Made by a program: the position numbers and the translations under genes. Source: Bacteroidota bacterium (GTDB lineage: Bacteria; Bacteroidota; Bacteroidia; Chitinophagales; Chitinophagaceae). From it: a stretch of DNA of 64,000 nucleotides. Below are positions 334 to 45,658 of this stretch, in pieces (within the stretch, counting starts at the first letter, position 1; the number at the start of each line of letters is the position of its first letter). The notes beneath the pieces were generated by a model that saw nothing but the letters and a program-made list of their open reading frames with translations, ran no database searches and had not been told where the DNA came from. Location: contig JAFEAJ010000041.1 of NCBI GenBank assembly GCA_018266455.1, forward strand, positions 1 to 64,000. Direction: 5' to 3'.

Positions 334-391
334 GCCCCGCCTCATCCCTAACCCTCTCAGCCTCATCCCGACCTTCTCCTAAAGGAGAAGG
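334..391. repeat. GCCCC-led palindromic element, copy A
   Basis: Directly after the traE stop codon comes GCCCCGCC, then a C-rich stretch and a perfect 9-bp stem CCTTCTCCT/AGGAGAAGG (372-380 and 383-391) with a 2-nt AA centre. It resembles the REP-like palindromes at 1908, 2713, 2858 and 7400. A terminator is less likely because no T-run follows. It may act as an mRNA-stabilising or processing hairpin in the operon. Confidence 0.6.
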
Positions 392-542
392 AGATAAGAT
401 ATAAAAATGAAGTGATCATGATACAGTGCGCGTGGAAATTGTTTTTAAGGCCACCCTGATTTTATTCCAAAATGTAGAGCTTAAAAAACACTGCTGCAAA
501 AGCAGGATGGAATCCTATTGCCCAAATTTTCAACAATCAATC

Positions 543-1907
543 ATGAAAAAATATATCAGTCTAATCATCATTTCTGCCTTCGTATTTTCCTGTAAAAAAC
601 AGGACACGAGCGCGCCTGGACAACCCCAAAAATTCGACAGCCACTATTTATCTAACGTCAAAGCCTACCTGCAAATAAACCTGTCTTCTGCTGACTACAG
701 TGAAGTGGACACTGACAGGTTATCGCTGAGCAAACAAAACGGCGCCTGGTTTTTACGGATAGGCATCACCGGGAATGATATCGCCAGAGACTTTATCTTA
801 TTGCAGACAGACAGCAACGGAAATTGCCTGAACGGAAATTTTGTCCATCTGAGGCGGGACTCCGGCGACAGGTCATCTTTCAATGGCAAAATCTCTATTG
901 AGTCCCTCAGCCATGAAAATCCGGTCTACCGGAAAGTCACTGACGGTATCGCCCAAACGCTGAGCTGCGGCGAGAATGAAGAGTCGATCGATAAAATAGA
1001 AACAGATGCCTGTGATATCGTGCCTTCCTATGATTGCACCGGTTGCCTTCCTGAAGTAATCGTGATCGGTTATGTGACCAGCGGCAGCCCTGGCGGAGGA
1101 GGTGGCGGGATCAGCTTTAGCGATTATTTAAATCTTGCAGCGCTCGCAGGCGGCACCGGGTCAGGCGGGACTTATACGGGAAATTCATCGGGTGTCTACA
1201 GCCCTGTTAATCCTCCTTTGTATACAGGTGGCGGATCATCTGTGCCCCCGGCAAAGGTCAGCCCCGATGTCACCATCAATTATTCAACAGAGTATGCCAA
1301 ACCGGGTATCGATGTGAACGCTTTCATGAAATGTTTCTCCACTATCCCTGATGATGGAGCGACCTGTTCGGTAACCATTTTCACCGATCTTCCCGTCAAT
1401 GACGATCCTGAATATATCTTTAATATACTCACGGGCGCAACAGGCCATTGTTTTTTGCAGCTGACCAAAACAAACGGAACCCAATCGGTGACCCAGATCG
1501 TTGGGAAGACCACCTCAAAAGTAGTCGCCGTGCTGGGGTTCCCTGTACCTGGTAAAATTGTAGACAACAGCATCCACAAATACAATGCCTCGCTGACCAT
1601 GAATATCAGCCCTCAGCAATTGCAAACAGAGATCAACAGCATCACAGCTATCGGGAACAATCCCCGGTATGATATCTGGGAAAACAATTGTGTCGACTAT
1701 GCCGTGGGCATCTTAAATAAGATCAGGCCCTCAAACCCTCTGGAGGTCGTTAAGTTGTTAGACCCGATGAGCGGTGACCTGTATAACACTCCCCAGGGAT
1801 TATACATGGCGCTTGATCAGCTGAAACAGGCAAACGGAGCGGAAGCAAAAAATATAGTTACCGGTGTGGTGCAACGTGCGGGGACAAGCCACGGGGCATG
1901 TAATTAA
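543..1907 (+). CDS. Lipoprotein with permuted papain-like (NlpC/P60-type) C-terminal domain
   Basis: Predicted 454-residue lipoprotein. The start at 543 is preferred over an upstream frame-open ATG at 426 because it gives a lipoprotein signal peptide with lipobox VFSC (Cys17). The middle is Gly/Ser-rich and low in complexity (about residues 190-255). The C-terminal part has a GHC motif with His302 and an NNCVDYA motif with Cys383. His-before-Cys order with NNC is the arrangement of circularly permuted papain-like hydrolases and acyltransferases (YiiX/LRAT/PPPDE-like). I infer a cysteine hydrolase facing the periplasm or cell surface. It lies between traE and traF, where CTnDOT-like operons normally have nothing, so it is a cargo or accessory transfer gene. 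Peptidoglycan or lipid cleavage during mating is possible but not shown. Confidence 0.6.
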   Translation: MKKYISLIIISAFVFSCKKQDTSAPGQPQKFDSHYLSNVKAYLQINLSSADYSEVDTDRLSLSKQNGAWFLRIGITGNDIARDFILLQTDSNGNCLNGNFVHLRRDSGDRSSFNGKISIESLSHENPVYRKVTDGIAQTLSCGENEESIDKIETDACDIVPSYDCTGCLPEVIVIGYVTSGSPGGGGGGISFSDYLNLAALAGGTGSGGTYTGNSSGVYSPVNPPLYTGGGSSVPPAKVSPDVTINYSTEYAKPGIDVNAFMKCFSTIPDDGATCSVTIFTDLPVNDDPEYIFNILTGATGHCFLQLTKTNGTQSVTQIVGKTTSKVVAVLGFPVPGKIVDNSIHKYNASLTMNISPQQLQTEINSITAIGNNPRYDIWENNCVDYAVGILNKIRPSNPLEVVKLLDPMSGDLYNTPQGLYMALDQLKQANGAEAKNIVTGVVQRAGTSHGACN

Positions 1908-1938
1908 GCCCCGCCCAACCCTCTCCCCTGGGAGAGGG
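1908..1938. repeat. GCCCC-led palindromic element, copy B
   Basis: The lipoprotein stop TAA is immediately followed by GCCCCGCCC and then a perfect 9-bp stem CCCTCTCCC/GGGAGAGGG (1919-1927 and 1930-1938) with a 2-nt CT centre. The layout matches copy A: stop codon, GCCCCGCC, then the palindrome. Confidence 0.6.
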
Positions 1939-1966
1939 CCATTAAAAAACCGCATTACTAACGTCT

Positions 1967-2284
1967 ATGCATACCAGTATTTATAAAATAAACAAGAACA
2001 TCAACAAGCCCATTGAGTTCAAGGGCCTCAAGGCGCAGTACATATGGTGGCTGGGTGCTGCGGTGATCGGGCTGATGATCCTGTTTGCGATCATGTACAT
2101 CGCAGGCATCAATGCTTACCTATGTGTTGTTGTGATTTTAATGGCAGGTGGATTCTCCATTCATTTTATCTACCGGCTCAGTAATAAATATGGTGAGCAC
2201 GGCATGAAAAAAAAGATCGCTAAAAGAAGCATACCGAAAACAATCAGGATTTATAACCGGAAAATATTTTTCTTCGCACAATGA
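1967..2284 (+). CDS. traF: Conjugal transfer protein TraF (DUF4133 family)
   Basis: A 105-residue inner-membrane protein with two adjacent hydrophobic segments (about residues 26-46 and 50-70) and a basic C-terminal tail. This is the size and layout of the DUF4133/TraF family of Bacteroides conjugative transposons, a VirB3-like partner of the TraG ATPase. The N-terminal INKNINKPIEFKGLKAQYIWW segment is typical of the family. The stop codon overlaps the next gene's start in an ATGA, so the two are translationally coupled. Confidence 0.85.
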   Translation: MHTSIYKINKNINKPIEFKGLKAQYIWWLGAAVIGLMILFAIMYIAGINAYLCVVVILMAGGFSIHFIYRLSNKYGEHGMKKKIAKRSIPKTIRIYNRKIFFFAQ

Positions 2285-2748
2285 AAAATGAGATCACGAT
2301 AAGGCCGGCAAAGAACCATGACGCGCGGAAAATATTCAACTTCCTCTGTGAACTGGAAGAACAATTGTTCGACCAGCAGGAATTTGAGATCAATTACCGG
2401 CTCTGCCTGGCGGACATCAACAATATTTATCTCGTGGCAGCCGGTACAGATAATGTAGCCATCGGATATATCAGCTGTCATGGCCAGATACTCCTGCATC
2501 ATGGCGGGATGGTCTTTGAAGTGCAGGAACTCTTCGTGGAAAAACCATACCGCAACAAAGGAGTAGGCAGACAACTTTTGAAAGGGCTTGAGGGGTACCT
2601 GAACAAAAGAGCATACAAATCGCTCGAAGTCGCCGTGAACAAGCACAGGGCTTCCGCCAGAAAATTTTATATCAGCGAAGGGTTTGAAGAAACGCATGTG
2701 AAACTGGTCAGAGCCCCCCACCCCCCTAAAGGGGGAGAAGGAAAATAA
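2281..2748 (+). CDS. GNAT-family N-acetyltransferase embedded in the tra operon
   Basis: A 155-residue single-domain acetyltransferase. The acetyl-CoA binding motif A is visible as LFVEKPYRNKGVGRQLL (about residues 84-100, with R/N-x-G-x-G), followed by the motif B region LEVAVNKHRASARKFYISEGFEE, where a C-terminal Tyr and Phe are usual. It overlaps traF by 4 nt and precedes traG, so it is cotranscribed with the transfer genes although acetyltransferases are not part of the core machine. The last dozen codons and the stop are supplied by a palindromic repeat, so the native C terminus was probably replaced. The substrate is unknown. Confidence 0.8.
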   Translation: MKNEITIRPAKNHDARKIFNFLCELEEQLFDQQEFEINYRLCLADINNIYLVAAGTDNVAIGYISCHGQILLHHGGMVFEVQELFVEKPYRNKGVGRQLLKGLEGYLNKRAYKSLEVAVNKHRASARKFYISEGFEETHVKLVRAPHPPKGGEGK

Positions 2749-3002
2749 CCGATATAAGACAGAGTTTTTAATCAGTGAAGAAAGAATGGTGATGGAACGG
2801 AATTTAAAAGACATATTGCCTAAACTTGATGTCGGGAACGATATGATACTCTCGAAGGCCCCCCGGCCCCCTAAAGGGGGAGAAGGAAAATAACCCATAT
2901 AAGTCAGAGTTTTTAATCGGTGAAGAAAGAATAGTGATGGAACGGAAATTAGAAGACATATTGCCTATACTTGATGTCGGGAACGATATGATACTCTCGA
3001 AG
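2713..3002 (+). repeat. 145-bp tandem duplication covering the 5' end of traG
   Basis: Two consecutive units, 2713-2857 and 2858-3002, are each exactly 145 bp and differ at about nine positions by my count. Each unit starts with GCCCCCC and the palindrome CCCCCTaaAGGGGG (stems 2722-2727/2730-2735 and 2867-2872/2875-2880). It continues through the same ribosome-binding region (GAAGAAAGAAT) and encodes the first 22 residues of TraG. The first unit is cut off by the second unit's palindrome, while the second unit runs into intact traG. The palindromes are copies C and D of the family also seen at 334, 1908 and 7400. Confidence 0.9.
2792..2893 (+). pseudogene. Truncated copy of the traG 5' end (33-codon ORF)
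   Basis: The first tandem unit keeps a start codon and a ribosome-binding region like that of traG, and 22 codons nearly matching the start of TraG (DILPKLDVGNDMILSK against DILPILDVGNDMILSK). It then reads into the palindrome as APRPPKGGEGK and stops at 2893, 43 bases before the real traG start. It is most simply a duplication relic. Because its initiation signals are intact it could be translated as a leader peptide, although nothing in the sequence proves this. Confidence 0.7.
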
Positions 3003-5381
3003 CAAGGAGACATAACGATTGCTTTTGAAGCTTTTCTTCCTGAAATCTTCACACTGTCGAACGAAGAATACGAGCGCTTTCACCAGGCCTGGATAAAAGC
3101 CATCAAAATATTGCCGGTGCATTCCGTCTTTCACAAACAGGATTGGTTTACCCGGGCAAAACACGAAGCAGATTTTTCAACACAGGACACTAGTTTTCTA
3201 TCCCGCAATTCGGAAAGGTTTTTCAATGAGCGGCCTTACCTCGACCACCATTGCTATATTTTTCTCACGAAAAAACCGGCGGGCAGGAAATTGTCTTCTT
3301 CAGTCTTTTCAAATCTTTTGCGAAAATCGATTGTGCCAGATGAGACATTGGACGCACAGTTGTTACAGGAATTTTCAGGTGCGGCAGGACAATTCAGGCG
3401 AATCCTGGAAGACAGCGGCTTTATCAGCCTGCAGCAGATGAAAAACGATAAATTGATGAGCACAAAGGGCAAAGCAGGCATCATTGAGAAATATTGCTTC
3501 CTGCTCGAAGATGAAAAGCTAATCATAAAAGACATTTCGTTTGCGGAAGGCGTCCGGGTCGGAAATCAGTTTTGCCAGCTCTATACACTTAGCAACCCGG
3601 CAGACCTTCCTTCGCTTTGCGGCTCCCGCATCAACTATGATAAGTATTCTACAGACAAAACAAAATTCAGTGTCGGTTTTGCTTCCACGCTCGGGCAGTT
3701 GCTGCCCTGCAACCATATTTACAACCAGTACATCTTTACCGGTGATGCACAGAAAACCATAAAGCAGCTCGAGAGCAAAAGGCTAAGGCTGCAGTCGCTC
3801 TCTGCATATTCGAGGGAGAACGCAGTTGCCAAAGAAGCCGTGAACGATTTTTTGAACGAAGCGGTTGGCGACGGGAGACTGCCTGTCAAAGCGCATTTCA
3901 ATGTCCTTGCCTGGGCAGACGATAAAGAGCAATTAAAAGATTTAAGGAACCTGGTATCATCAGCCATCGCCCAGATGGATACGGCACCGAAGCACGAGCT
4001 GGACGGAGCGCCCCAAATCCACTGGGCAGGCATACCGGGGAACGAAGCGGACTTTCCGATGAACGATGCTTTCGACACGTTTGCGGAACAGGCCTGTTGT
4101 TTTCTAAATCTTGAATCGAATTACCGGTCATCGTTATCTCCTGTCGGTATACGTTTAGGTGACCGGCTAACGGGAAGGCCTATCCATGTCGATATATCTG
4201 ATGAACCGGTTAAAAAAGGGATCACTACGAACAGGAATAAATTTATTCTCGGCCCATCGGGGTCAGGCAAGAGTTTTTTCACCAACCACATGGTACGTTC
4301 CTATTATGAGCAGGGAACACATGTCGTTCTCGTCGATGTCGGGCATTCCTATAAAGGATTATGCGATATGGTGAAGGGATATTATTTCACTTACTCGGAA
4401 ACCAACCCGATAAAATTTAACCCTTTTTATATTGATGGCGTTTTGGACACCGAAAAAAAGGAATCGATCAAAACTTTGCTCCTTGCGCTCTGGAAAAGGG
4501 ACAATGAAAATTTTAACCGTTCGGAGTATGTCGCGCTGTCCAATGCATTGCAGCTATATTATGAGCGCAATAAAAAATTCCCATGTTTTGACTCTTTCTA
4601 TGAGTTCCTGAAAGACGATTTTGTACAAGTGCTGCAAAAAGATAATGTAAAAGATAAAGATTTCGATGTCTCTAATTTTCTTTACGTGGTGAGGCCTTAT
4701 TACAAAGGGGGAGAATTTGATTACCTGCTCAACGCAAAGGAAAATCTTGATCTGTTGAACCAACGCTTCATCGTCTTCGAGCTTGACAATATAAAAGACC
4801 ATCCGATCTTATTTCCGGTAGTGACCCTTATCATTATGGAAGTGTTCATCTCAAAAATGAGAAAGCTAAAAGGAATCCGTAAAATGATCCTTATCGAAGA
4901 AGCCTGGAAGGCAATTGCTAAAGAAGGGATGGCGGAGTACATTAAATATCTTTTTAAAACCGTCCGCAAATTTTTTGGAGAGGCAATCGTCGTCACACAG
5001 GAAGTCGAGGATATTATTTCTTCTCCCGTGGTGAAGCAGGCCATCATCAATAACAGCGACTGCAAAATCCTGCTCGACCAAAGCAAATACCAGAACAAAT
5101 TTGACCAGATCCAGGAATTGCTTGGCCTGACAGAAAAAGAAAAAGCACTGGTGCTCTCCATCAATAAGGCAAACGACGTGTCAAAAAAATACAAAGAGGT
5201 CTTTATCTCTCTCGGCGGCACGCTTTCCCGTGTGTACCGGACAGAAGTGTCAATGGAAGAATACCTGGCCTATACCACAGAAGAAACGGAAAAAATAAAA
5301 GTGCAGGAATATGCCAAACAATTTGGCGGCGATATCCGAAAAGGAATCACCGCAATGGTTGCAGCGATGCACGGGCCATAA
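2937..5381 (+). CDS. traG: Conjugation ATPase TraG (VirB4-like)
   Basis: About 814 residues, the usual size for the Bacteroidota TraG/VirB4 ATPase that powers assembly of the mating channel at the inner membrane. It has a family-specific N-terminal domain (about residues 1-400) and an AAA-like motor domain. Walker A GPSGSGKS is at residues 439-446. Walker B is in MILIEEAW (about 650-657), followed by VTQEVEDI and a late ILLDQSKYQNKFDQI motif typical of VirB4 proteins. GTG at 2934 directly precedes ATG 2937 in frame, and I chose the ATG. The 5' end is duplicated upstream. TraE and TraF precede it and three TraI-like genes follow, as expected for this operon. Confidence 0.93.
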   Translation: MERKLEDILPILDVGNDMILSKQGDITIAFEAFLPEIFTLSNEEYERFHQAWIKAIKILPVHSVFHKQDWFTRAKHEADFSTQDTSFLSRNSERFFNERPYLDHHCYIFLTKKPAGRKLSSSVFSNLLRKSIVPDETLDAQLLQEFSGAAGQFRRILEDSGFISLQQMKNDKLMSTKGKAGIIEKYCFLLEDEKLIIKDISFAEGVRVGNQFCQLYTLSNPADLPSLCGSRINYDKYSTDKTKFSVGFASTLGQLLPCNHIYNQYIFTGDAQKTIKQLESKRLRLQSLSAYSRENAVAKEAVNDFLNEAVGDGRLPVKAHFNVLAWADDKEQLKDLRNLVSSAIAQMDTAPKHELDGAPQIHWAGIPGNEADFPMNDAFDTFAEQACCFLNLESNYRSSLSPVGIRLGDRLTGRPIHVDISDEPVKKGITTNRNKFILGPSGSGKSFFTNHMVRSYYEQGTHVVLVDVGHSYKGLCDMVKGYYFTYSETNPIKFNPFYIDGVLDTEKKESIKTLLLALWKRDNENFNRSEYVALSNALQLYYERNKKFPCFDSFYEFLKDDFVQVLQKDNVKDKDFDVSNFLYVVRPYYKGGEFDYLLNAKENLDLLNQRFIVFELDNIKDHPILFPVVTLIIMEVFISKMRKLKGIRKMILIEEAWKAIAKEGMAEYIKYLFKTVRKFFGEAIVVTQEVEDIISSPVVKQAIINNSDCKILLDQSKYQNKFDQIQELLGLTEKEKALVLSINKANDVSKKYKEVFISLGGTLSRVYRTEVSMEEYLAYTTEETEKIKVQEYAKQFGGDIRKGITAMVAAMHGP

Positions 5382-5388
5382 ATAAAAA

Positions 5389-5419
5389 AGGTATTGTGGC
5401 CTGGTAGCCTGCAATACCT
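5389..5419 (+). other. Intra-operon hairpin between traG and the traI-like gene
   Basis: AGGTATTG (5389-5396) pairs with CAATACCT (5412-5419), and an inner GGC (5398-5400) pairs with GCC (5407-5409). This gives an interrupted 11-bp stem a few bases after the traG stop. No T-run follows, so it is unlikely to be a simple terminator. An mRNA processing or attenuation structure is possible. Confidence 0.45.
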
Positions 5420-5477
5420 CGTTAACCAAAACTTTACGAACTGCCGGACAAATCTAAATCCCCAAAAACAGAGACAA

Positions 5478-6173
5478 ATGAAAATACTATCCACAACCTG
5501 TGCATTAAGTGTAAAGAGGGCTGCATTATCACTTGCTATAATATTGTTTGCTTCAGTTGCAGAGGCGCAGATCCCCGTCATCAGTGTAATCACTACACTG
5601 GCTAAAAAAGTCATCAATGCAATTGACCTGGAGGTTGAGAACCTGCAGAACCAGACCGTAGAACTGCAGAACGTTCAAAAGGCCCTGGAGAACGCCATGT
5701 CGAAACTGCAGCTTGACGGCATTACGGATTGGGTGCAAAAGATCAAAGACCTGTATAGCGAATACTACCAGGAACTATCGCAGGTCAAACAAATCATCTC
5801 AGATTATGACAAAGTGAAAAGCATCACCCAATTGCAGGAACGGATCGTATGGGAATACCAATCAGCCTATGCGCTTTTCAAGCAGGACAAACATTTTACT
5901 TCGGGTGAGATGACCTATATGTACAATGTGTACTCGGGGATTATACATGAAAGCATAAAAAACCTGGAGCAGGCAACATTGGTGATCAGTCCGCTCGCGA
6001 CACAGATGACCGATGAGAGCAGGCTTAACATAATCAACACCGCTTTCACCGGCATGCAAAAAAACTACAATGACCTGAAAGCGTTCAATAGCCAGAACAT
6101 CCAATTGAGTTTGCAGCGCGCTGCTGATGCGAATGACCTGCAAACAGTCAAACAATTATATGGGTTGCCATGA
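5478..6173 (+). CDS. traI: Conjugal transfer protein TraI-like, exported coiled-coil protein (paralog 1)
   Basis: Predicted 231-residue periplasmic protein. ATG 5478 is preferred because it begins a clear signal peptide (ALSVKRAALSLAIILFASVAEAQ, cleavage near residue 31). The mature part is largely helical, with a coiled coil around residues 44-75 (heptad-like LENLQNQTVELQNVQKALENA). Position and length fit the TraI protein of Bacteroidota conjugative elements, often proposed to be VirB5-like. The C-terminal half is homologous to the next two genes (pattern YNVYSGI, then MTDESRL, then QRAADANDLQTVKQLYGLP). Its stop overlaps the next start by 4 nt. Confidence 0.75.
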   Translation: MKILSTTCALSVKRAALSLAIILFASVAEAQIPVISVITTLAKKVINAIDLEVENLQNQTVELQNVQKALENAMSKLQLDGITDWVQKIKDLYSEYYQELSQVKQIISDYDKVKSITQLQERIVWEYQSAYALFKQDKHFTSGEMTYMYNVYSGIIHESIKNLEQATLVISPLATQMTDESRLNIINTAFTGMQKNYNDLKAFNSQNIQLSLQRAADANDLQTVKQLYGLP

Positions 6174-6790
6174 AAAAAACAATTGTCATATTAGTCGCTA
6201 CTCTGTCGATTGGATTCGTGAAAGCGCAAGGCCTGAGCAATTTCTTTTCACAAAAGCAGGCCGATATCAAATATATGCTGGCGCAGATCGCGGAACTGCA
6301 AACTTATATCGGGCTGTTGCAGAAAGGTTATGGCATCGCACAGAAAGGATTAACCGTGATCGGTGATTTGAAAAAAGGGGAATTTGATCTGCACAGCGCA
6401 TTTTTTTCCTCCCTTGAAACCGTCAATCCTTCCATCGCCAAATATGCAAAGGTTGCGGGCATCATTTCTAACCAGGTTTCGATTATGAGTTCGTTCAAAA
6501 AAATATTACAGCTAAAAAATATGTCCGCATCCGAAATGAGCTACCTCCAAAGTGTTTATAACAACATGAGCGGAGCATGCGCTGAATCGCTGACTGATCT
6601 GATCAATATTATCACAGATAATACTTACCAGATGAAAGACAATGAGCGTATCACAAGGATTGACGCCATCTATGCCGATATGAAAGATAAATATGCCTTC
6701 ACCCAAAGTTTTGCAAGCGATGCCTCAGTACTTTCCGCTCAGCGTGGCAATGACTTACATGAAATTGAATTTTTAAAAAACCTGAACTAA
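6170..6790 (+). CDS. TraI-like exported helical protein (paralog 2)
   Basis: A 206-residue protein with a signal peptide (MKKTIVILVATLSIGFVKAQ). It shares its C-terminal half with the flanking genes: EMSYLQSVYNNM, then DNERITRIDAIYADMKDKYAF, then LSAQRGNDLHEIEFLKNL. Close relatives are often labelled as TerB tellurite resistance proteins in automatic annotation. The context (4-nt overlap with traI, between the VirB4 and VirB6 homologues) argues for a role in the mating apparatus, perhaps as a VirB5-like tip or periplasmic subunit. Functional differences among the three paralogs cannot be read from sequence. Confidence 0.65.
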   Translation: MKKTIVILVATLSIGFVKAQGLSNFFSQKQADIKYMLAQIAELQTYIGLLQKGYGIAQKGLTVIGDLKKGEFDLHSAFFSSLETVNPSIAKYAKVAGIISNQVSIMSSFKKILQLKNMSASEMSYLQSVYNNMSGACAESLTDLINIITDNTYQMKDNERITRIDAIYADMKDKYAFTQSFASDASVLSAQRGNDLHEIEFLKNLN

Positions 6791-6792
6791 AA

Positions 6793-7416
6793 ATGAAAAA
6801 GATAATTTTCGTTTTTGCAATATTATACTCTTTAAGTGCGAATGCGCAGAGCTATGAACTGGAGCGGCTGATACTTGATATTGAAAAGCTGGCACAGTTA
6901 AAAGATATTTTGAGCGATCTGTATAAAGGATACGAGATTTTAAATAATGGCTACAATACCATTAAAAATATCTCGGAGGGCAATTTCAGCCTGCACCAGG
7001 CATTTTTGGATGGCTTATTGATGGTAAGCCCTGCCATCAAAAATTATCAGCATGTGGCAGATATCATCGATTACCAGGCAAGGATCGTATCAGAATACAA
7101 ATCGGCTTTTAATGTGTTCCGGCAGGATAAACATTTCAATCCGGATGAGATCAGCTACTTAAGTAATGTATACAACAATCTGGTGAGCGGCGGCCTTGCG
7201 AATCTTTCTGATCTTTTGAATATACTAACGGATAAGGTCATGCGCATGTCGGATGATGAGCGCCTTCGTGCCATTGATGAGATATATGCAGACACCAAAG
7301 ACAAATATCTTTTCTTGAGGCAATTCAATAACGGTACAACAATACTTGCCGCACAAAGGGCAACTGAAGAAAACGATATAGGGACATTGAAAAGACTATA
7401 CCCCCTGGCCCCCTGA
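6793..7416 (+). CDS. TraI-like exported helical protein (paralog 3)
   Basis: A 207-residue protein with a signal peptide ending near SANAQ. It is closest to paralog 2 (DEISYLSNVYNNLVSGG, DDERLRAIDEIYADTKDKYLF, LAAQRATEENDIGTLKRLYPL), so the pair looks like a recent tandem duplication. It starts 2 bases after the paralog 2 stop, so translation is probably coupled. The last codons (CCC CTG GCC CCC TGA) belong to a GCCCC-type palindrome, which supplies the stop codon. Role inferred as for paralog 2. Confidence 0.65.
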   Translation: MKKIIFVFAILYSLSANAQSYELERLILDIEKLAQLKDILSDLYKGYEILNNGYNTIKNISEGNFSLHQAFLDGLLMVSPAIKNYQHVADIIDYQARIVSEYKSAFNVFRQDKHFNPDEISYLSNVYNNLVSGGLANLSDLLNILTDKVMRMSDDERLRAIDEIYADTKDKYLFLRQFNNGTTILAAQRATEENDIGTLKRLYPLAP

Positions 7417-7424
7417 AGGGGGAA
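7400..7424. repeat. GCCCC-type palindromic element, copy E
   Basis: ACCCCCTGGCC leads into CCCCCTgaAGGGGG (stems 7409-7414 and 7417-7422). The stop codon of the third TraI-like gene lies in the palindrome centre. Same design as the copies at 2713 and 2858. Confidence 0.6.
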
Positions 7425-14061: not shown

Positions 14062-15105
14062 TTAATGCGGCAATTTTTCGATGGCTTTCGCCGCAGATTT
14101 TAATTTATATCGCTGATACGTTTTATGTACATATTTTGTGGTTGTATGCCCAAGCATGCCTGCGACTGTTGCAGCATCCGTTCCTTCATCTTGTAACAAA
14201 ACAGAAATGGAATGCCTGAAGCAGTGCCAGGTAATTCGCTTGTTGATTTTTGCATCTTCGACCCATTTATCTAAAACTTTTTGAGTGCCAGTGTGTGTCG
14301 GCAAATGAAAAACCATTCCTTTTTTTCTTTCGCCAATTATTTCCAGGGCCAGCTTATGCAATGGAACTTCAAGCTGAACTTTTGTTTTTTGTTGGATGAT
14401 GCATACCGAAGATTCTTTTATAGAATTCCAATCGAGTGATATAATGTCGCACCATCTAAAACCAGTGTACAAAGAAAAAATGGCTGCTTTCTTCACTTCA
14501 TAGTTGCTGCAAAATGTTCCCATTAATTGTCTATATTCATCTGCTTCCAATATTTCCTTTTTTGCAGAAGGCTTTGATTTTGCTTTTACATCTTCTGCAG
14601 GATTTTCTTTAAAATACCCTTGCTTCTTTGCAGCTTTAAGCATCCTGCGGAAACGCATAAAATAGTCAGCAGGCGTTTCACCGTTGAATTTATCTAATAA
14701 ATAATTTCTAAAGCGTTCGCATAAATTTTCATCGATATCAAGTGCACTGATGAAATTAGTTCCTAAAAAATCTTTAAATGCTGCATGGCTTGCTGCAATA
14801 GATCGATTGCCGGATCTTGAATTCTTCTTGACAAATTCAGCATAAAAGTCAAGGAAATTGTTTTTCAATCTGTGCAACGGAATATAGCTGCCCCCGGCTG
14901 CCTGGGCATCCAAAATCATTTGTGATTTTTTTGAAGCCAGGATATTCAGTGCTTCTTTGTTGTGATTTTTTTGGATCTGGTCTAACGGCCTTGTATATGT
15001 GAAAATGCCGCTTGCCATGCGCTGGCCGATGTCTTTTCCCCATTCAAAATAGTACCAGGTTTTGTCTTTTTTCCGTGAAGTTTTTTTTGTAATTATGACT
15101 GGCAT
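14062..15105 (-). CDS. int: Tyrosine recombinase (ICE integrase)
   Basis: A 347-residue site-specific recombinase of the phage-integrase family, which catalyses insertion and excision of the element. The start at 15105 (MPVIITKKTSRKKDKTWYYFEW) fits the usual N-terminal arm-binding domain. An upstream open frame to 15222 runs through repeats and is unlikely to be coding. A SAM-like core-binding domain (FLDFYAEFVKK to NPAEDV) is followed by the catalytic domain with Arg in YTGFRWCDI, the HxxR box in WHCFRHS, LGHTT, and Tyr in YVHKTYQRY. The gene is transcribed away from the adjacent tRNA-Leu, the common layout for tRNA-integrating elements. Confidence 0.93.
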   Translation of the reverse strand: MPVIITKKTSRKKDKTWYYFEWGKDIGQRMASGIFTYTRPLDQIQKNHNKEALNILASKKSQMILDAQAAGGSYIPLHRLKNNFLDFYAEFVKKNSRSGNRSIAASHAAFKDFLGTNFISALDIDENLCERFRNYLLDKFNGETPADYFMRFRRMLKAAKKQGYFKENPAEDVKAKSKPSAKKEILEADEYRQLMGTFCSNYEVKKAAIFSLYTGFRWCDIISLDWNSIKESSVCIIQQKTKVQLEVPLHKLALEIIGERKKGMVFHLPTHTGTQKVLDKWVEDAKINKRITWHCFRHSISVLLQDEGTDAATVAGMLGHTTTKYVHKTYQRYKLKSAAKAIEKLPH

Positions 15106-15118
15106 TTGGAGTTGATTT

Positions 15119-15186
15119 TGTTCGCCAAACTGTTCGCCATTTGCGTGCCATTTTTGGCGAACAAAAGCGGAGAAAAGTGGCGAACA
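15119..15186. promoter_or_regulatory. Four copies of TGTTCGCCA (two direct, two inverted) upstream of the integrase
   Basis: TGTTCGCCA occurs at 15119-15127 and 15131-15139. Its exact reverse complement TGGCGAACA occurs at 15155-15163 and 15178-15186. The array fills the space between the integrase start and the tRNA. Such spaced 9-mers are typical of arm-type integrase sites or operator sites for an excision or control protein. The inner pair can also form a hairpin in RNA. Confidence 0.7.
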
Positions 15187-15242
15187 GTGACCAGTCATTA
15201 AACAAAAAAGCATGATAATCATTTAGTTATCAAGCTTCCCAG

Positions 15243-15326
15243 TGCCCAGAACAGGAATCGAACCTGCACATTGTTGCCAATACCAGATTTTGAGTCTGGC
15301 GCGTCTACCAATTCCGCCATCTGGGC
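15243..15326 (-). tRNA. tRNA-Leu (anticodon CAA), likely ICE attachment site
   Basis: Read on the minus strand, the acceptor stem GCCCAGA pairs with TCTGGGC. The D-loop shows GGAATTGGTAGACGCG, and the anticodon arm CCAGA-CTCAAAA-TCTGG gives anticodon CAA. A long variable arm (type II tRNA) and GGTTCGATTCC in the T-arm complete the 84-nt structure. CCA is not encoded. Its 3' end faces the integrase, so the element probably integrated into this tRNA. The matching repeat at the far left end would lie outside the window. Confidence 0.95.
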
Positions 15327-43196: not shown

Positions 43197-43314
43197 TATG
43201 CTAACTTAGCAAATAGTGCAGGTATTTTTAGAAAATACAAAGAATAAAAGTACCAATATTATTTTCTTTCTGCACGAAAAACACAAATTTATCATATCTA
43301 TCAAAAAATTACTT

Positions 43315-44226
43315 ATGAGAAAGATCCAGGCCTTTTTTTCAATTTTGCTATTGAATGTTCTGTTTGCCGGTGCGGTTTCGGCACAAAATCAAAACAGCCC
43401 GGGAGCCGGGATATATGTAAAAGTGTATGGCGGGTATGGGCTGCTCACCCCGGGATCTTATTTGTTATACCCTTCCACCACAAATAACAATTCCGGCAGC
43501 AGCACTTTTAATTCTTCTTCAATTGGTTTAGGCGCAGGCCTTCACTATGGTGGCGGTATTGCTTATGTTGCCAGCGACTTTATTAATATTGGAATTGATG
43601 CCGAATATTTAAGTGGCAAAAAATTATCTTCGAGCAATAGCTATTCGTATTCCAATGGATCCAACAGTGGCAATTCTTTATATTCTCAAACGGTTACTCA
43701 TTCCGTGTTGAGCATCATTCCTAATGTTACTTTTAAGGCATTGTCTAAGCCGGGTTATTATATTTACAACAGGATCGGGATTGTCCTGGCAGTTAATACT
43801 AAAGTGCAGGTTGTTTCAACAGACACCTCCAATTCAGCTTCGGGCGGAAATGCTTATACTTATGGAAATTTAAGTAATCAGACTTATAAATTTGGCCTCA
43901 ATTTGGGGGTGCAGGCAGCAATAGGGGCGCAATTTAATTTAACCGATAACCTTCGGGGCTTTGTAGAAATTGTTGGTAATTACCTGCCGACTAAACCAAC
44001 ATCTTCAAAGGAGACAAGTACTACTAATGCTCAGACAAATGGCCTTCCCAATGCAGGCACGCCCTCTACCAGCAATTATAATTACACTTATAAAAAATCC
44101 GGTACTTTTAACAACACATCAAATCCGAATTCAACAAACGGATATGATTACAATTATACTGCGGCACCTGTTACTTTCAACATCAATTACATTGGTTTGA
44201 ACATAGGCGTAGCTTATAAGTTCTAA
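43315..44226 (+). CDS. Outer-membrane beta-barrel protein, copy 1, coupled to tssE
   Basis: A 303-residue protein. ATG 43315 starts a signal peptide (MRKIQAFFSILLLNVLFAGAVSAQ); the open frame upstream is not signal-like. Alternating beta strands (GIYVKVYGGYGLLTPGSYLL, GLGAGLHYGGGIAYVASDFINIGIDAEYLSG) and a C-terminal Phe (LNIGVAYKF) indicate an outer-membrane barrel. Ser/Asn/Tyr-rich loops hold repeated short motifs. It ends 2 bases before tssE, so they are coupled, and it is paralogous to the barrel beyond tssE. A T6SS-related envelope function is an inference from context only. Confidence 0.75.
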   Translation: MRKIQAFFSILLLNVLFAGAVSAQNQNSPGAGIYVKVYGGYGLLTPGSYLLYPSTTNNNSGSSTFNSSSIGLGAGLHYGGGIAYVASDFINIGIDAEYLSGKKLSSSNSYSYSNGSNSGNSLYSQTVTHSVLSIIPNVTFKALSKPGYYIYNRIGIVLAVNTKVQVVSTDTSNSASGGNAYTYGNLSNQTYKFGLNLGVQAAIGAQFNLTDNLRGFVEIVGNYLPTKPTSSKETSTTNAQTNGLPNAGTPSTSNYNYTYKKSGTFNNTSNPNSTNGYDYNYTAAPVTFNINYIGLNIGVAYKF

Positions 44227-44228
44227 AC

Positions 44229-44660
44229 ATGCAAGCTTCCTATTACAGGCTGCCGCTCAGGCTCGACCAGGTTATTCAAAGCAGGAAGCTGCCTTCCTGC
44301 CCGTTAAAGCATTCCATTGCGCAAAACCTGCACCTCGTCATTTCCACCTATCGCGGCGAATCAGCTTATTCTGATGATTTTGGCTGCAGCCTGTGGGACG
44401 AAGAATTTAATATACAGCTCAACCCCAGGTGGAGGGAAAACCTTTGCGATTCTTTAAAGCAGGCTATTGCGCAATTCGAGAAAAGGCTTTTGCTGCAGGA
44501 GGTAAAGGCCAATATGGAAGAACAGAACGAACTGCTGGAAAGGCAGAACCTACGGGTGAGGAGGTGCCTGCATATTGAACTGAAGGGCATCATTAAAAAA
44601 ACAAACGAATCGTTCACATTCAGGGACAGTATTTATATTTCTCCGCTGGCGCAGAAATAG
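44229..44660 (+). CDS. tssE: Type VI secretion baseplate protein TssE (GPW/gp25 family)
   Basis: A 143-residue cytoplasmic protein of the gp25/TssE family, which links the baseplate to the sheath. Family features are QNLHLVISTYRGESAYSDDFGCSLWDEEF near the N terminus and the C-terminal RRCLHIELKGIIKKTNESFTFRDSIYISPLA. It is on the + strand, opposite most other tss genes, between two beta-barrel paralogs. The start is 2 bases after the upstream barrel gene's stop. Confidence 0.85.
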   Translation: MQASYYRLPLRLDQVIQSRKLPSCPLKHSIAQNLHLVISTYRGESAYSDDFGCSLWDEEFNIQLNPRWRENLCDSLKQAIAQFEKRLLLQEVKANMEEQNELLERQNLRVRRCLHIELKGIIKKTNESFTFRDSIYISPLAQK

Positions 44661-44794
44661 GTATTCAAAATGCTTTTTTTGCAGGTTTTTTTTCGGCGAT
44701 TTATAGCATGTGTCCGTCGGTTATTTTCATTAATCCCGCATGGCCGGCTCAAATTTGTTTAGAAATCTTCTTTCCTTATTTCTAAATTTTTTTT

Positions 44795-45658
44795 ATGCCA
44801 CGCAGGTTATTTTTTGCATTTGCATTTTTTTTGCTATCCGTTTCATCGTTTTGCCAGGCACAACCTTCATCAGCAGACCTTTTTTTTATAAAGCTGTACG
44901 GAGGCTATGGCTTGCTTACCCCGGGATCATACCGGGGGAATTCCACAAAACAAGATTATGAGAATTTCAGCTCAGGGAAATTAGGGGCAGGGGCAGGCTT
45001 GCATTACGGTGCTGGCCTGGGCCTTGTTGTGAACGATTTTTTGAATATTGGTGTTGATGCCGAATTGTTAAGCGGGAAATTGCATTCTTCCACATCTTCC
45101 CGGAACACCTACACGAACTCGCATTTTCAGCAAACGGTCAGCTATTCGGTAACAAGCATAATCCCTAATATAACGTTTAAAGCACTTTCAAAGCCAGGTT
45201 ATTATATTTATACAAGAGTTGGACTGATTATCGCAGTAAGCACTAAAATCGAATTTGCAAATTTCGACAGCTCATATTCTACCGGCAGTGGAGCTGTGAC
45301 ATTGATCAACGGCGACGAAAATTATTATTTCAAGGTCAATGCAGGCATTCAAACCTCCGTTGGGGCGCAATTTAATATTACCGATAAGCTGAAAGGATTC
45401 GGTGAAATAACCGGTTATATACTGCCCGCATCTCCTACGCATTCCAAACAACAATATACCACCACAAGCTATGGGCCAACATTTTCGTCTTATTCAACAG
45501 TCACCAGTTACAATTACACTTATAAACGATATGGAAGTTACGCACCTGTGAGCACGCTTAATTCAACGGGCGGTGCAGATATTTCAGCCAACCAGCCATC
45601 AATTACCCAGGACATCAATTACATTGGGGTGAACATAGGAATAGTATTCAGGTTCTAA
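44795..45658 (+). CDS. Outer-membrane beta-barrel protein, copy 2
   Basis: A 287-residue signal-peptide-bearing barrel (MPRRLFFAFAFFLLSVSSFCQAQ) that shares long stretches with the copy before tssE: LYGGYGLLTPGSY, GAGLHYGAGLGLVVNDFLNIGVDAELLSGK and SIIPNITFKALSKPGYYIY. It ends VFRF with the terminal Phe expected for barrels. The pair seems to have arisen by duplication around tssE. Function not recognised. Confidence 0.75.
   Translation: MPRRLFFAFAFFLLSVSSFCQAQPSSADLFFIKLYGGYGLLTPGSYRGNSTKQDYENFSSGKLGAGAGLHYGAGLGLVVNDFLNIGVDAELLSGKLHSSTSSRNTYTNSHFQQTVSYSVTSIIPNITFKALSKPGYYIYTRVGLIIAVSTKIEFANFDSSYSTGSGAVTLINGDENYYFKVNAGIQTSVGAQFNITDKLKGFGEITGYILPASPTHSKQQYTTTSYGPTFSSYSTVTSYNYTYKRYGSYAPVSTLNSTGGADISANQPSITQDINYIGVNIGIVFRF

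Follow-up and report, generated by a model that had tools for sequence, protein, structure and literature searches.

Short palindromes led by GCCCC or ACCCC recur between positions 334 and 7424 of the window, i.e., the whole 64,000-nucleotide stretch of the Chitinophagaceae contig analyzed here, and lie at gene 3' ends in a conjugative transfer (tra) operon. This raises the question as to what kind of sequence they represent, whether they belong to the host genome or to the element that carries the operon, and why they should be found so precisely at gene ends.

Palindromes in a conjugative element

Bases 1 to ~15.2 kb of the window are the end of a CTnDOT-like integrative conjugative element (ICE), inside which the contig starts. 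The window has both the tra gene set (DUF4134/TraE, DUF4133/TraF, TraG, TraJ, TraM and DUF4138) and a tyrosine integrase (14062-15222, minus strand) beside a tRNA-Leu(CAA) (15242-15326), which marks the integrated end of the ICE; the other end falls beyond the contig. Past the integrase and the tRNA lie genes including one with an alanine dehydrogenase domain. In the operon, read on the plus strand, the traE homologue (DUF4134; PF13572; 7-333) is followed by an accessory gene for a predicted lipoprotein of 454 amino acids (543-1907), the traF homologue (DUF4133; PF13571; 1967-2284), a GNAT acetyltransferase gene with a repeat-encoded tail (2281-2748) and the TraG conjugation ATPase (PF19044; 2937-5381). 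Downstream, three TraI-like genes encoding ~206-231 residues stand in tandem (5478-7416), an order kept in nearly all related operons examined. The lipoprotein has no Pfam match; its gene occupies the same place between traE and traF in the sister elements L028 and L029, and lies upstream of traE in L034 and L036. The only Rfam hits are this tRNA itself and an antisense match to it below the threshold, and three queries against a plasmid collection gave no match. Elsewhere in the window (43216-45658), two adjoining genes share repeated stretches, 70-81% identical over 48-117 nt, and are apparently tandem paralogues.

The window contains exactly five palindromes of the pyrimidine-to-purine class, all on the plus strand and all within 334-7424; 300 sequences simulated with a first-order Markov model of the initial 7.5 kb had 0.02 on average and never more than 1. 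Every one of the five abuts or provides a stop codon. The initial annotation had described five copies with a GCCCC/ACCCC leader and a 2-nt centre, two of which start right after a stop codon while three supply the last codons and the stop of a gene, and this description holds, with leaders at 334, 1908, 2713, 2858 and 7400, save that the leader at 334 stands 38 nt from its palindrome, a looser spacing than in the other copies. The first two are read as TAA followed directly by GCCCCGCC, at 331-341 and 1905-1915. Repeat 1 (334-398, GCCCCGCCTCATCCCTAACCC...CCTTCTCCTAAAGGAGAAGG), directly 3' of the traE stop, has the palindrome CCTTCTCCT-AA-AGGAGAAGG at 372-391; it belongs to the stem subfamily CCTTCTCCT, the identical stem of which occurs seven times in a genome of the host's family (G035). 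Repeat 2 (1908-1940, GCCCCGCCCAACCCTCTCCCCTGGGAGAGGG), directly 3' of the lipoprotein stop, has CCCTCTCCC-CT-GGGAGAGGG at 1919-1938, and this exact stem is absent from the 11 relatives searched. Repeat 3 (2713-2748, GCCCCCCACCCCCCTAAAGGGGGA; CCCCCT-AA-AGGGGG at 2722-2735) gives the GNAT protein the ending APHPPKGGEGK and its stop (2746-2748). Repeat 4 (2858-2893; CCCCCT-AA-AGGGGG at 2867-2880) closes a 35-residue fragment of the TraG N-terminus (2786-2893) with APRPPKGGEGK. Finally, repeat 5 (7400-7424, ACCCCCTGGCCCCCTGAAGGGGGA; CCCCCT-GA-AGGGGG at 7409-7422) turns the end of a TraI-like protein into RLYPLAP, with the stop at 7414-7416.

All five copies are thus present, but they represent four independent insertions. 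The segment 2713-3002 is a tandem duplication of two 145-bp units (2713-2857 and 2858-3002; plus strand), which start exactly at GCCCC and end in the traG 5' region; from GCCCC on they are identical at 136 of 145 positions, and the sequences to the left of GCCCC differ. The copy at 2858 is therefore a by-product of this duplication of repeat 3 and not an independent insertion. The duplication also created the 35-residue ORF, which places TraG N-terminal sequence ahead of the full TraG. Its joint has little or no microhomology. That it starts precisely where the repeat begins on its left side hints that this end may be a site of strand processing. The four independent insertions have three different stems, and their grouping as one family is made by layout and not by sequence: they share the C-rich leader, the 2-nt centre, the purine tail and the gene-end position, and one related operon (L033) has two stem types together.

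Distribution of the repeats and candidate enzymes

The initial annotation had taken the palindromes for a mobile repeat inserting at gene ends, a view to be given up were the motif rare in the genome. In this host it is rare: CCCCCTNAAGGGGGA occurs three times in the 3.88-Mb genome, always in the tra operon, and CCYTCTCCTNAAGGAGARGG once, within the same operon. These two exact cores were counted genome-wide, whereas the search for other palindromes covered 852 kb of the host beyond the operon and yielded a single unrelated one. On the two genome-wide counts and this 852-kb sample, a repeat dispersed through the genome of the present host is rejected. The dispersed family does exist in other genomes, as the following counts of exact matches, and hence lower bounds, indicate. 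Within the host's genus, each of two genomes has just one of the stem types CCCCCT and CCYTCTCCT, with 26 CCCCCT copies in G023 and 39 CCYTCTCCT copies in G014; G035 has both, with five CCCCCT and seven CCYTCTCCT copies; and in another family of the same class, G272 and G157 have 26 and 23 CCCCCT copies, respectively. Multi-copy, dispersed, GC-rich palindromes are therefore a feature of G014, G023, G157 and G272 but not of the window's host. Further, of 61 genomes sampled from the G272 genus, nearly all gave matches to the query locus, in many cases through dispersed pieces of ~30-110 bp at the repeats. An inverted partner lies within 200 nt of 32 of 82 copies in other genomes, in the order plus then minus and 44-161 nt apart, and of none of the five in the window. 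Genomes with sister elements have 0-3 CCCCCT copies each, and a donor lineage sought among them by this count was not found. In G035, an inverted copy (L013, ~1501-1515) is read in frame near a protein N-terminus (MSNSQNNQTSQ-VPPSGGGGG-VLFDV...), apparently representing an intragenic insertion.

These properties invite comparison with known repeat systems. REPINs, or BIMEs, are inverted pairs of REP sequences (PMC3116915); the present family resembles them in its dispersed short palindromes, which in other genomes often form inverted pairs separated by some tens of nucleotides, and in its genome-specific subfamilies, but differs in its R-CCCC leader, in the window copies being single and in that no RAYT was found alongside. 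REPs near gene 3' ends that provide stop codons have been described (PMC3733652), and the family likewise lies close to gene 3' ends, with repeat ends giving stops. Unlike the GTAG- and CGTC-tagged REP superfamilies, it bears no such tag (GTAG/GTGG or CGTC) at the palindrome foot, and carries the C-rich R-CCCC leader instead. Atypical REPs have been reported for the Bacteroidetes TnpA-Y1 subclass 2.6 (PMC6006769), which belongs to the same phylum, and copy-rich genomes here encode RAYT-type proteins that bear NHxH and YIHxNP motifs; the difference is that the palindromes flanking those genes, where present, are other sequences. The family behaves like REP/REPIN repeats, lacks the GTAG/CGTC tag and was not found flanking a RAYT at the loci inspected. 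A literature search for the motif or its peptide found nothing relevant in the literature covered.

The proposal of the initial annotation, namely that these are classical host REPs moved by a resident RAYT, is favored by the gene-end position and repeat-supplied stops known for REPs, and by the co-occurrence of strong RAYT-type genes with the repeats in seven of the eight genomes where such genes were found, most copy-rich genomes having RAYT-type proteins. It is nonetheless unlikely, as the host has no repeat outside the ICE and its candidate enzymes do not adjoin one. Of its four PF01797 genes, three (L004, L005 and L006) are IS200-type by their motifs (DH.H ... Q) and the fourth (L007) is unassigned; none has a GCCCC palindrome beside it, nor is one near the single weak RAYT-profile hit. 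A RAYT flanked by the repeat was not found in the copy-rich genomes either, where the ~1.5-kb flanks of the inspected PF01797 and RAYT-type loci contain no GCCCC palindrome. RAYT-type genes there border other kinds of palindromes, e.g., CAAGCGTCCACGCTTG, or none. Additionally, G023 has its 26 copies with only a weaker RAYT-like gene pair that is also present in copy-free congeners. Since copies occur without a strong RAYT and other palindromes adjoin the RAYT genes, the co-occurrence does not imply a cognate enzyme.

Two further observations concern these genes. In G272, two RAYT-type genes (L173 and L175) are bordered by CAAGCGTCCACGCTTG-type palindromes, which constitute a different REP-like family. 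In the host's genus, RAYT-like hits form adjacent pairs, as in L411 (G007) with homologues in G002, G009, G010, G013, G016, G023, G031 and G032; L411, the member read, combines HHLH with IHENP, an altered HUH motif with His for the usual Tyr, and may on these residues be degenerate or domesticated. When the 219 ORFs lying up to 1.5 kb from a copy were clustered, in search of a recurrent neighbor as candidate mobilizing enzyme, only groups of two to five ORFs emerged, none outstanding in size.

Empty sites in sister operons

Comparison with the nearest sister operons, a check that the initial annotation had called for, shows that the palindromes of the window are insertions. In these operons the order of the genes is retained, accessory lipoprotein and GNAT genes included, and palindromes of this kind are absent. 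All four sites are represented in L029, which is palindrome-free at each; single sites are confirmed by L028 (sites 2, 3 and 5, its sequence beginning within the lipoprotein gene) and, with the same neighboring genes, by L030 (site 3) and L031 (sites 3 and 5). At site 1, L029 has a 34-nt gap without a palindrome. At site 2 it reads GCAATTAA/AAACTAACG, again palindrome-free, versus GTAATTAA/GCCCCGCCCAACCCTCTCCCCTGGGAGAGGG in the window, the slash marking the joint.

The altered C termini postulated along with the insertions are equally apparent. GNAT proteins of relatives end in THVKFVKGI, THVKMVHEK or THIKFVKEM, as against THVKLVR-APHPPKGGEGK in the window, with the C-terminal end of the L029 protein diverging earlier; the TraI-like protein ends in NLYK in L029, SLYGLQ in L028 and SLYDGD in L031, as against RLYPLAP in the window. 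The empty-site operons, with TraG 79-87% identical to that of the window, are too divergent to reveal target duplications. Across 80 related tra loci (1.09 Mb) there are three palindromes of the class in all: L033 has a pair that brackets traE, the first just upstream of the gene and the second a little past its stop, and L081 has one upstream of traE. Within genus g49, two junctions have a copy in some members and not in others, at ~70-84% identity, which is too divergent for calling target duplications.

The same comparison bears on the idea that the palindromes are functional RNA hairpins of the tra operon, protecting or attenuating its polycistronic transcript. Their location would suit such a role, all five being on the coding strand with co-oriented genes on either side, as would the predicted hairpins of ~-10 to -15 kcal/mol; but nearly all related operons do without them, and relative to shuffled sequences only repeat 2 folds clearly better (z -2.1), the others having z from -0.9 to +0.65. 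Nor do they resemble intrinsic terminators, i.e., a GC-rich hairpin with a T-run: none of the window palindromes has a T-run on its 3' side and none is in the list of terminator-like sequences. We regard a hairpin function as improbable. Arrival of the palindromes with the accessory lipoprotein and GNAT genes, as the 3' ends of these genes, can be dismissed with near certainty. Although three sites border accessory genes, repeats 1 and 5 adjoin core tra genes, and the empty sites contradict such an origin: the two accessory genes are present in L028 and L029, and the GNAT gene in L030 and L031, all of them palindrome-free.

Placement at gene ends and history of the element

In a set of 52 copies, 26 have an ORF 3' end no more than 50 nt away (as do 7.5% of random positions), 22 have an ORF 5' end at such a distance (8.2% expected) and 28 are intergenic (11% expected); ORFs were called mechanically and the sample was chosen around copies, such that these figures measure position and not abundance. 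Same-strand stops concentrate at particular offsets from the element start, with ranges reflecting two counts of slightly different de-duplication: -2 (TA/G, 11 copies), -3 (TAA/G, 6-7), +6 (6) and +14 (9-10). The repeat bears a stop for each of the three frames: TA/G where its left end joins the target, TAA within the CCCCCTAACC spacer (+6) and TRA in the palindrome centre (+14). Among the 70 flanks that lack an upstream ORF end, 89% have A or T at position -1 and 54% have T at position -3, which shows a bias for A/T-rich targets independent of stop codons; apart from this bias, the upstream 12 positions are unconserved. In the window, the element start of all four independent insertions lies at most 2 nt from a native or inferred gene end, for which uniform placement gives a chance of ~6e-7, a figure that overstates the case as it ignores selection against broken genes; for sites 3 and 5, the native gene ends are deduced from relatives. 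The exact gene-end placement can thus be attributed to the stops in three frames combined with the A/T-rich target. Insertion followed by selection, the latter of which we infer, is enough to explain the pattern.

On balance, the palindromes are probably non-autonomous REP/REPIN-like repeats that entered the CTnDOT-like ICE in earlier Bacteroidota hosts and are now carried in a host otherwise without them. A copy begins at R-CCCC and inserts behind a short A/T-rich target (T-W-W). Insertion within TA/A or after TAA leaves the protein unchanged, and insertion a few codons earlier only swaps its tail; hits in or next to a native stop are harmless or tail-only on account of the stops in three frames. 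Copies at gene ends would then survive selection, as they do little damage to proteins. Movement would depend on an enzyme acting in trans, and the acquisitions would have taken place in previous hosts; copy 4 arose later through the tandem duplication, whose boundary coincides with the repeat's left end. Against this account are the failure to find a transposase or a donor lineage, the single state of the window copies, the three stems among four insertions, the divergence of the empty-site operons and the low CCCCCT counts in genomes with sister elements. The CCTTCTCCT and CCCCCT stems do occur together in G035. That different stems are amplified in different genomes and several are found on one ICE is compatible with their collection in different hosts, a hypothesis to be set beside the low CCCCCT counts of the sister-ICE genomes.

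A broader possibility, which we raise only tentatively and consider doubtful, is that Bacteroidota have a REP-like family, without GTAG tag or RAYT, that is spread by conjugative elements, with each ICE gathering host-specific stems as a record of its past hosts and with the left end serving as the strand-processing site of an undescribed enzyme. The locus is probably a case of REP-like repeats traveling between species on a conjugative element, with sister empty sites for several of the insertions. The combination of three-frame stops and an A/T-rich target offers a concrete reason both for the exact gene-end location and for the short PPKGGEG-type tails. If stem type marks host lineage, such repeats could serve to trace the hosts through which an ICE has passed.
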